Positions 37,529 through 41,885 of a stretch of DNA of 41,885 bases are shown piece by piece. Under the pieces are notes generated by a model. That model worked only from the letters and a program-made list of their open reading frames with translations. It was not told the DNA's origin and ran no database searches. Source of the stretch: Limisphaerales bacterium (GTDB lineage Bacteria > Verrucomicrobiota > Verrucomicrobiia > Limisphaerales > UBA11358); assembly GCA_003161635.1 (NCBI GenBank), contig PMOA01000078.1, forward strand, positions 9,019 through 50,903. The letters are read 5' to 3'. Position numbers and translations under genes: made by a program. Every line of letters starts with the position of its first letter. Position 1 is the first letter of the stretch.

Positions 37529-37960
37529 ATGACGAAGAAAGGCATTGTCATGAAACAGCGTTTTATATTGTTCCGCCGCGCCGGTGTTTTCTACTACGAA
37601 GACACTACCACCGGTAAACAACTCAGCCTCCGCACGAAAGACGAAGCGGAAGCCATCACCCTGCTCAACGCCAAGAACGAATCGTTCCGGCAGTACGGGA
37701 GCGCCTTGGGCGAAAGGCCTTGCACCGCGGTGTCCGGGAAACGGACGATGAACACTGTGCTGCCACTCGTTTGGACGTATAATCGTGATTGCCGATACCC
37801 GACGTTCGATGAGATGGTCCTTAACATCATGCCCCTGCTAAAGAATGGTGATACACCCGAACATCAAACCATTCTAAATGTTTTGGAAACTATCGCTGAA
37901 AGATATTTGCACGACAGGTGGCGGCTAAGAAAAAGTTGTCAAAATTTGTTGAACCTGTGA
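37529..37960 (+). pseudogene. N-terminal remnant of a tyrosine-recombinase-like integrase
   Basis: Residues about 8-60 (RFILFRRAGVFYYED, TTGKQLSLRTKDEAEAI, LLNAKNESFRQ) match the arm-binding N-terminus I recall from integrases of Verrucomicrobiota. After this the sequence loses similarity and ends at 37960 with no catalytic domain (no R..H.R..Y region). Thus it is probably the front of an integrase gene cut by a later event. Alternative ATG starts lie at 37505 and 37550. It follows the right 144-bp repeat and its associated short repeats. Confidence 0.5.
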
Positions 37961-39788: not shown

Positions 39789-40188
39789 CGAGGAGATAGA
39801 TGAATGGATCGGCGGGGAGGCGATAGCGAGCGTCCGACACCGGGCCAGTCAAGAGGGCTAGATAGATCACAATGCCGGCGCATATCCATACTGCGACATT
39901 TCGGCGTTGTTTGATGACAGCATACATACAACAGAGGGCGATGAAACAAATGCCGAGGCGCTCTGCAAATTTCCACCAAGGCGTGGCTAGCTTAGAGAGG
40001 AAAGCCCCGATATGTCCATTGGCGAGCTCGAATATTGCGGCTTCACCGCCTGGATTGAAGGGCTTGTTTATGGCGATATGATAGAGGTTGGCGGACCATT
40101 CCAGGTCTGAGGCGAAGCAAAATGGCACGGTTGTGGTGAGATGATATCTTGCATATCCGTGGTCGCGAAATGTTGACATGGAAACCAA
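39706..40188 (-). pseudogene. C-terminal part of a membrane glycosyltransferase-like (ArnT/PMT type) protein
   Basis: This is a 160-residue frame with three hydrophobic helices (LGICFIALCCMYAV, VWICAGIVIYLALLTG, PFIYLLASSGVVLYIG) and the SDARYRLPADPF motif typical of the end of dolichol-mannose or ArnT-like family 39 transferases. The N-terminal catalytic part is missing; the frame runs on to about 40245 without a start or similarity. The 3' end overlaps the oxidoreductase gene. It shares the AT-rich character of its neighbour. Both may come from a surface-polysaccharide cluster cut short at about 40190. Confidence 0.5.
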
Positions 40189-40493
40189 GACGTGTGTGTG
40201 CGCCAGCCCCTTTGCGACGAGAACGGCGTTGGGTTCGGAGCTCGTCTTTTAGCGGAGAATTCAACGCTGCTTTGGTCGCACCATTCAATTCTACGGAGTG
40301 ACGAAACTTGGCTGCCGGAATGGAGCGGCAACCTGGGCGGAGTGCAGCGGTGGCGCAGTTCGGTCGCGTGGGGTGTCTTGGGGCAAGCCAGTCTTCGGCT
40401 TACGGCGTCAAGCCAGTTGGCTGAAAGTCTGGCGCGGGGGCGGGTGCAATTTCAGCGCGACGGAACGAGCACACAAGCGGAACGGAGGCCAGG

Positions 40494-40964
40494 TTGACGC
40501 GGAATGTAGGCGGTAAAGTTTGGTCACGACAACGGACGTGCAACAGAATTGAGACTGCGGTGACCATGTTCTTTGCACTCGTCCGCCGCCTGTGCCGCTG
40601 GTTCAAAATCCCGTTTCGCAAGTGCGTCTGGGCTTTGCGCCAGGAGCCGGGGAAAATCAGCGGACGATTACACTTTCATTTTCTGATCGTGGGTTTGCCG
40701 CCGTATGCCGTCCAGGTCGCCACCTGTATGAGTTTCAAGGCGCAGTGGGAAAAACTCGGTGGCGGCATGGCCCGAGTCAGAGAATACGATTCGAGAAAAC
40801 AAGGTCTCGAATACACGTTGAAATGTCTCAACGTCACGAATGGGGGAGCGAATCTCTACGAAGTGGGGAAGTTCTCGCATTCGGTGGATGAGGTCATGTT
40901 GTCGAACTCAATCTGGAACCCGGAAAATCTCAACCGGGTCTCGGATACGCTTGTCACTGCCTAG
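40494..40964 (+). pseudogene. Truncated HUH-type replication protein (rolling-circle Rep-like)
   Basis: The frame (TTG 40494; GTG 40560 or ATG 40566 also possible) encodes up to 156 residues. It shows GRLHFHFLI, the His-hydrophobic-His motif of HUH nucleases, and about 50 residues later GLEYTLKCL, which fits the catalytic Tyr/Lys motif. Between them lies FKAQWEKLGGGMARVREYDSR. The upstream motif 1 region is not in frame and stops interrupt it, so the N-terminus is lost or frameshifted. Such proteins nick DNA to start rolling-circle replication or transposition. The interval 40189-40493 has a long open frame without recognisable features. A strong hairpin and a small HTH-like gene follow. Confidence 0.55.
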
Positions 40965-40999
40965 TCGAACGCTCGGCGGCGGTGGATTCGTCAACCGAT

Positions 41000-41045
41000 T
41001 CGGGGGAGCGTGAGCGCGCGCGGAGCGCGCGCCACGCACCCCCGA
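41000..41045. repeat. 20-bp-stem hairpin between the Rep-like and HTH-like genes
   Basis: Arms 41000-41021 and 41025-41045 pair as TCGGGGG/CCCCCGA, GCGTG/CACGC and GCGCGCGC/GCGCGCGC, with one bulged A, one A-A mismatch and a 3-base loop (GGA). No T-run follows on either strand. Its place next to a HUH-type gene suggests a nicking or origin hairpin, but it could also be a terminator that needs no U-tract. Confidence 0.75.
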
Positions 41046-41087
41046 TGGCTTGAAGATGAATTATGTCCAGATGAAAACGACTGAATT

Positions 41088-41420
41088 ATGACTGACGATA
41101 TCACGCAAGCGGCGATGACGACCTGGGCTGCGAAAGACCTGCCGGCCCGGCTACTGGCGGTGCAAGTTGCGAAACTGTTGAACTGCTCAACGGAAGATGT
41201 CGCCATTCGAGTCAGCGCGGGGAAACTGCGGGCGCTCGGCAAGCCCAGGCCCAACGCGGTGAAATTCTTTAGCGCCATCGAATTGATCACCCTGCTGGCC
41301 GACCCTGATTGGCTGGACGAAGCGACGAAAACCATCGGCCAATACTGGCGGCGAAAGAATGCCCGCCGCAATGGTTTGCCCACTGAAAAACAAACGGATT
41401 CGGTCGTCGTAGTTCGTTAA
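41088..41420 (+). CDS. Small HTH/excisionase-like protein
   Basis: This is a 110-residue protein from ATG 41088. Residues about 20-60 (RLLAVQVAKLLNCSTEDVAI, VSAGKLRALGKP) read like the winged-helix start of excisionase-type or MerR-like DNA binders, followed by VKFFSAIELITLLADPDWLD and a basic stretch (YWRRKNARRNG). I recall such proteins beside HUH genes in Verrucomicrobiota genomes. It probably regulates or assists the mobile element. It lies 43 bases after the hairpin. Confidence 0.6.
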   Translation: MTDDITQAAMTTWAAKDLPARLLAVQVAKLLNCSTEDVAIRVSAGKLRALGKPRPNAVKFFSAIELITLLADPDWLDEATKTIGQYWRRKNARRNGLPTEKQTDSVVVVR

Positions 41421-41465
41421 AATTAGCTTGCATCATAAGCCGATTTGCCGTATAAGGTGTAGCTA

Positions 41466-41885
41466 ATGAAACCTCCGCAATCTGTGAAGATTGCCTGTCT
41501 GCTGTGTGCGGTGATGATGCTGCCCGCCGTGATGCAAGCCCAGTTCCTTTTCACGACCAATAACGATGGTTCGCTCAACATTTACCAATACACCGGTTCC
41601 GGCGGTGCGGTGACCATCCCCAGCACGACCAATGGCCTGCCGGTCACCAGCATCAGGAGCAATGCGTTCCATATGAGCAGCGTGACCAGCGTCACGATTG
41701 GCACTAACGTCACCAGCATCGGGGACTATGCGTTCCAATACTGCGGCCTAACCAACGTGACGATCCCCAACAGCGTCACCAGCATAGGGAACTATGCGTT
41801 ATATTACTGCTCCGGCCTGACCAACGTCACGGTCCACAAAAGAGTCACCCGCATCGGGGGCTGGGCATTCTCATGCTGCTACCTC
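41466..41885 (+). CDS. BspA-type leucine-rich-repeat secreted protein, N-terminal part
   Basis: Open from ATG 41466 to the window edge, 140 residues so far. A signal peptide (IACLLCAVMMLPAVMQAQ) is followed by a YTGSGGAVTIPSTTNGLPVTSI cap and then 23-residue repeats of the LRR_5/BspA type (VTSIGDYAFQYCGLTNVTIPN, read in overlapping steps). In known cases such repeats bind surfaces or host proteins. Verrucomicrobiota and Planctomycetota often carry many. Just upstream lies a possible -10 (TATAAG, about 41451). The 3' end is outside the window. Confidence 0.85.
   Translation, partial: MKPPQSVKIACLLCAVMMLPAVMQAQFLFTTNNDGSLNIYQYTGSGGAVTIPSTTNGLPVTSIRSNAFHMSSVTSVTIGTNVTSIGDYAFQYCGLTNVTIPNSVTSIGNYALYYCSGLTNVTVHKRVTRIGGWAFSCCYL

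Follow-up and report, generated by a model that had tools for sequence, protein, structure and literature searches.

Inovirus satellites lack virion genes, and a plasmid satellite of an inovirus was reportedly described by Schmid et al. in 2024. Among the elements closest to the one described here, RS1 of CTXphi is a satellite of a filamentous phage, according to passages of PMC11389934. An inovirus survey takes as canonical inovirus attachment sites those repeats that are found at tRNA genes or next to an integrase, and its main text contains neither 'Verrucomicrobi' nor 'satellite' (PMC6813254). An inovirus has been reported in Lentisphaerae, a phylum of the wider PVC group, in the relevant section of PMC11361711. 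For rolling-circle replication more generally, passages of a review describe a nick site exposed at a hairpin-like double-strand origin and initiators with HxH and tyrosine motifs (PMC5714925). A literature search over titles and abstract openings, mostly outside subscription journals, found no account of the elements described below.

Here we analysed a Rep–hairpin–HTH locus in a 41,885-nucleotide stretch of DNA from a Limisphaerales bacterium (the window), together with its relatives in other genomes. Like inoviruses (Tubulavirales, for example fd), the relatives place a small REP_ORF2-G2P-type Rep beside a small gene, of the size of the family that we call F1; one of them, L094, carries coat-like, adhesin-like and Zot genes, and the relatives' repeats lie at tRNA genes or beside an integrase. 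Unlike inoviruses, they gave no significant match in our searches of INPHARED and IMG/VR, and most copies seen are without virion genes; their order is F1–Rep with the origin after Rep, whereas the fd record gives II, X, V. Satellites such as RS1 accompany or depend on filamentous phages, and helper dependence is putative here; the relatives differ from these satellites in encoding a tyrosine integrase of their own, to which two of them add restriction–modification genes. With pC194/phiX174-type replicons they share HxH and tyrosine motifs, a proposed hairpin-like double-strand origin and a CTTG|A site that presumably resembles the nick site of those replicons, but Rep here has a single YxxK motif, the elements are integrative and there is no significant family match.

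The truncated Rep gene and its neighbours

A forward-strand open reading frame with a TTG start (positions 40494–40964, 156 aa) contains the motifs GRLHFHFLI and EYTLKCL, as expected from the original prediction of a Rep-like frame. Comparison with intact Reps corrected the extent of the homology: it begins only at query residue 23, at approximately position 40560. The copy has therefore lost the start region and its FxTLTF motif, and the approximately 22 leading codons (40494–40559) are not of Rep origin but form a junction with a dispersed repeat. The remaining part (40560–40964) is the 3′ portion of an HUH-type Rep gene that corresponds to approximately residues 31–166 of 166-aa intact Reps and includes the HxH (GRLHFHF) and YxxK (EYTLK) motifs. 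The window copy is therefore 5′-truncated, and no F1 gene lies upstream of it. Intact relatives with the same hairpin downstream, which the prediction had named as its check, were found in a scan of bacterial genomes: the Reps at L017 and L018 are complete (166 aa), share 87–88% amino acid identity with the window Rep and are both followed by the hairpin.

Rep homologues occurred in 23 of 146 genomes of relatives, at 26 distinct loci, and the intact Reps of relatives measured 166–245 aa. Across 12 aligned Reps, the window copy included, H70, H72, Y117 and K120 were invariant, and all 12 carry the HUH Rep signature of an HxH metal motif and a catalytic tyrosine; the nearly invariant E64 is a lysine in the window Rep. 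No second tyrosine follows four residues past Y117, leaving a single YxxK motif instead of YxxxY.

REP_ORF2-G2P was the sole Pfam family found for Rep, with matches below the curated cut-off in all four Reps tried (E = 0.0012 for the window copy). PHROGs linked 5 of the 12 Reps to a family of unknown function (best, 5e-4). The phage records in INPHARED gave 25 weak matches, mostly to microvirus replication initiators (best E = 0.01, none covering 80% of the query), a search of 72,556 plasmid records found no relative (one match, at E = 5), and no relatives came from IMG/VR scans, which used short peptide patterns as seeds and Rep, the Rep alignment or Zot as queries. PDB profile searches gave nothing useful. 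AlphaFold (AF2) models were of low confidence for Rep (pLDDT 43.8, built from three sequences) and for F1 (pLDDT 39.7), and Foldseek searches with these poor models gave no match at E ≤ 0.001, the ribosomal and designed proteins listed being discounted. Neither F1 nor the HTH protein had a significant library match. Profile comparisons of Rep with the first 134 residues of fd gene II, and of F1 with fd gene V, detected no similarity, each being a weak test against a single sequence.

On the 3′ side of the hairpin, the predicted small HTH-like gene is present as a complete forward-strand frame of 110 aa (41088–41420). Between hairpin and HTH gene lies the start of a third gene on the forward strand (41071–41088; MKTTEL, then a stop), a remnant of the small gene found 3′ of the hairpin in L017 and L018. 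The gene after the hairpin in these two relatives is thus a different one, not HTH, and their DNA homology to the window ends at 41087 (L017) and 41076 (L018). A BspA-type leucine-rich repeat (LRR) gene begins less than 50 nt after the window HTH gene (the two within 41088–41885); an LRR match also follows HTH at five other loci, at varied distances (L002, L062, L065, L069 and L081), and this recurrence suggests that the HTH–LRR pair may travel together.

We fetched 20 Rep neighbourhoods and counted 19, dropping L102, which had no Rep at the threshold used. The conserved F1 gene (88–97 aa) stands upstream of Rep in 16 of the 19, and the order in relatives is F1, Rep, hairpin, followed in 11 (L086–L095 and L103) by an HTH-family gene on the same strand. 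Eight of these 11 (L086–L092 and L095) have a full-length tyrosine integrase of the family F4 (PF00589) next, on the opposite strand. In L095 (G020:C58), a 565-aa ORC-CDC6-like AAA protein without a PADLOC match lies between HTH and integrase (+1292..+2989) as apparent cargo.

The HTH family is commoner than Rep (73 versus 23 of the 146 genomes). We examined 34 HTH loci, four from the window's own genome and 30 of the best matches, and found an F4-integrase match (fragments included) at 16, the tail sequence described below upstream at 9, a Rep match at 7 and a BspA-type LRR gene at 6, the window being among each of the last three groups. Given its greater abundance and the integrase at 16 of 34 loci, the HTH gene seems to belong primarily with the integrase. 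A small HTH protein accompanying a tyrosine recombinase, as expected of an excisionase or recombination directionality factor, was thus seen at 16 loci and is absent from the window's own. A comparison of the window HTH protein with an HTH_17 protein by hhalign aligned 28 columns (Prob 51, E = 1.5e-4). From these similarities and gene contexts, we propose that the HTH protein would be a recombination directionality factor or regulator.

The left flank of the truncated Rep is a dispersed repeat (40179–40549, forward strand) with many copies in the same genome (contigs C35, C2, C138, C121, C110 and C142); it also occurs 1.2–1.7 kb upstream of Rep in four relatives (L089, L091, L092 and L095). 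The repeat is non-coding and may be an integration neighbourhood. The simplest history of the window copy would be a deletion from the repeat edge into Rep. A forward-strand fragment of an F4-type tyrosine integrase (37550–37699; G000:C9:46568–46717), a 66% match over residues 3–52, lies 2.8 kb upstream of the relic, past an intact 505-aa FAD-dependent oxidoreductase-like gene. A search for tRNA genes in the window found none. Elsewhere in the same genome we found a second Rep remnant with hairpin (L005), 12 matches to HTH and 15 to the integrase, two of the latter near full length; judged by these matches, the genome appears to be a graveyard of such elements.

The hairpin and the conserved tail

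Folding bore out the predicted 20-bp-stem GC hairpin at exactly 41000–41045 on the forward strand: the stem is built of 7 + 5 + 8 bp with one 1×1 mismatch and one bulge, and the loop is GGA. The region 40965–41087 folds at −35.9 kcal/mol, compared with −23.7 ± 2.5 kcal/mol for 200 dinucleotide shuffles (z = −4.96, 0/200). A short perfect hairpin is not rare by itself, with seven placements of perfect stems of at least 8 bp in the window and 2–4 in five mononucleotide shuffles. However, of six CTTG[AT]AG sites in the window, only the one at 41049 has a hairpin with a stem of at least 8 bp within 40 nt upstream. An automated repeat search reported no inverted repeats in the window; it requires a seed of 9, and the longest unbroken stem here, at 8 bp, probably fell short of that.

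After the hairpin stands a 20-nt tail, CTTGAAGATGAATTATGTCC (41049–41068, forward strand), that is conserved 3′ of Rep homologues. Of the 25 Rep homologues whose 3′ flank was long enough to use, 22 have it 3′ of a hairpin, in the form CTTG(A/T)AGA-N5-TATG(C/T)CC or a variant (L028, with a flank of only 179 nt, was omitted). Twenty of these tails were found by regular expression and two, at L104 and L036, by eye; 14 of the 22 follow the strict pattern CTTGWAGA-N5-TATGYCC and the other eight are looser variants. No tail was found at L039, L041 and L044, the most divergent or partial Rep homologues, and L038 and L098 have the tail with no strong hairpin.

The regular expression, which was composed with the sequences already in view and contains literal variants taken from L098 and L099, had 25 matches in 766 kb searched on both strands (three of them duplicate loci). 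All lay just 3′ of Rep or of a Rep remnant, and those away from Rep homologues were at the remnants L005 and L102 only. Across the 146 genomes, the pattern CTTGWAGA-N4..8-TATGYCC gave 26 matches versus 12 for a reversed control. Exactly 5 nt separate the halves in 18 of the 26, of which 14 are at Rep, two at Rep remnants (G000:C2 and G031) and two at neither.

The hairpin arms of 19 loci paired at 87.7%, compared with 54.6 ± 3.8% when arms were swapped between loci (0/2000), in a test that used the best stem per locus, which raises pairing by construction, and in which some loci are close relatives. It excluded L005, L102 and L098, the duplicates L023, L026 and L037, and L038 with its poor hairpin; L104 was entered manually. 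The stem sequence thus varies from locus to locus while complementarity is maintained. The spacing of Rep 3′ end, tail and HTH is the same 39 nt in L005 and L057.

We propose on these grounds that hairpin and tail form the double-strand origin of the element, with a candidate nick at CTTG|AAG in the window. The original prediction had read a hairpin beside a HUH gene as an origin or a terminus; recurrence of the tail after Rep homologues fits the former, and the internal position of the hairpin region in three bounded relatives (L096, L097 and L104) speaks against the latter.

Integrated relatives, cargo and filamentous-phage genes

Those three relatives lie between direct repeats in tRNA genes: L096 spans 2.98 kb between 30-bp repeats in a tRNA-Asp gene, L097 4.9 kb between 37-bp repeats in a tRNA-Gly gene, and L104, on the L018 contig, 9.6 kb between 31-bp repeats in a tRNA-Val gene. 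The unit is thus mobile in kind. The L096 integrase frame is just 203 aa, so this element may be defective. The PF00589 assignment covers the F4 family and the L104 integrase, with the L096 and L097 integrases outside the Pfam scan. The left ends of L096, L101 and L104 contain a direct repeat like CCTCACAAATAGCCTCACAA, a candidate integrase arm site, and a similar repeat lies near the integrase C terminus in L096.

L104 contains F1, Rep, the origin, a ParD/PIN pair, type III restriction and modification genes, an HTH_17 protein and the integrase. PADLOC identified the type III genes at 2.8e-235 and 7e-251; the restriction frame spans positions 239–877 of 883 and may therefore be broken. On the L017 contig, L105 carries an F4-family integrase, a NotI-family endonuclease and a D12 methyltransferase upstream of F1; the contig stops approximately 220 nt past Rep, leaving the right end of L105 out of view. 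At the F4-integrase loci L086–L092 we found no convincing attachment repeats, and the restriction genes upstream of L090 and L092 were therefore not counted as cargo. The prediction that Rep, hairpin and HTH gene form one mobile unit thus holds for relatives, in which the trio recurs and elements are bounded by tRNA repeats; the window copy is a relic, and L017 and L018 have another gene after the hairpin.

A link to filamentous phages comes from L094 (in G070), where the row reads F7, F1, Rep, hairpin, a 67-aa coat-like frame, a 582-aa protein, a 162-aa protein, Zot and HTH. Zot matches PF05707 above the cut-off (E = 1e-10), and the 582-aa protein has a signal-like start by eye. The coat-like frame, which sits between origin and HTH, matches Phage_Coat_B below the cut-off (E = 0.32), and an unrelated family scores better (0.028). 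By this gene content, L094 looks like a filamentous prophage; it is the only Rep-bearing element with virion-type genes among those seen. In G018, a hairpin and tail of similar kind lie 1.4 kb from a Zot gene, whereas no tail was found in the stretches fetched around three further Zot loci, in G014, in G020 and at the second site in G070 (G031, G041, G115 and G133 were outside the set). Rep occurs in 4 of 8 Zot-positive genomes versus 23 of 146 overall, a co-occurrence that hints at packaging by a helper inovirus and is suggestive only. No Zot match was found in the genome of the window, and we therefore did not file the window as an inovirus.

Interpretation and alternatives

Taken together, the locus is likely to be what remains, in decayed form, of a small rolling-circle element that integrated site-specifically and had filamentous-phage (inovirus-like) ancestry; this element was probably satellite-like, with no virion genes of its own. 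Where relatives are functional, excision would be carried out by the integrase and probably steered by the HTH protein. With the hairpin extruded, Rep would then nick one strand next to it, at CTTG|(A/T)AG, and rolling-circle replication would yield circular single-stranded DNA. F1, the small protein encoded upstream, may coat this DNA, with packaging or transfer possibly provided by a helper. The window copy, without F1, the Rep start or a following integrase, cannot act by itself.

An unlikely alternative is that the relic derives from an integrative mobilizable element or integrated rolling-circle plasmid, spread by conjugation with Rep as both initiator and relaxase and with no virion tie. 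It would account for coat-like and Zot genes being confined to L094 among the Rep neighbourhoods examined, others having an integrase plus, in L104 and L105, restriction genes. Yet in L094 the same F7–F1–Rep–hairpin–HTH frame surrounds the coat-like and Zot genes, no relaxase was recognised among the proteins scanned, and the plasmid records yielded no Rep relative beyond the single match at E = 5.

Two further readings concern the hairpin. That it merely terminates transcription of a Rep operon, and is not an origin, seems improbable: it does start 35 nt past the Rep stop codon in the window, and the L094 tail contains six Ts, but no T-run follows the window hairpin, and the tail sequence is maintained although its start lies approximately 80 to 390 nt after the Rep match across loci. 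That it marks the terminus of an IS91/helitron- or RAYT/REP-like transposon is very improbable. The hairpin adjoins a HUH-type gene, and CTTG occurs in IS91 targets too; against this stand its internal position within the tRNA-repeat-bounded elements, the lone tyrosine at Y117 and the mere two copies of the hairpin pattern in the genome. We rejected IS91, helitron and RAYT termini on these three grounds; for RAYT/REP there is in addition no Y1_Tnp Pfam match, and the two copies contrast with many dispersed ones. Least credible, and almost certainly wrong, is the idea that a dead Rep, a hairpin and a common HTH gene lie side by side by coincidence. The HTH family is indeed widespread without Rep, and L017 and L018 have no HTH directly after the hairpin, but the three features occur together in other genomes too, with the 39-nt spacing repeated in L005 and L057.

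Beyond a remnant of inovirus-like ancestry, a broader picture is possible, which we hold tentatively and with some doubt: integrase-encoding satellites of filamentous phages might occur across Verrucomicrobiota, spread as circular single-stranded DNA from a hairpin–CTTGWAG origin and carry restriction–modification cargo, with full phages such as L094 as relatives or helpers. The window copy itself is merely a relic of an element group for which our searches of phage, plasmid and virus collections gave no significant match. Its relatives provide, for this group of mobile elements, a gene set and a proposed origin that is compact and easy to recognise, a hairpin followed by a 20-nt tail; they also suggest that relatives of filamentous phages may move restriction systems among environmental Verrucomicrobiota.
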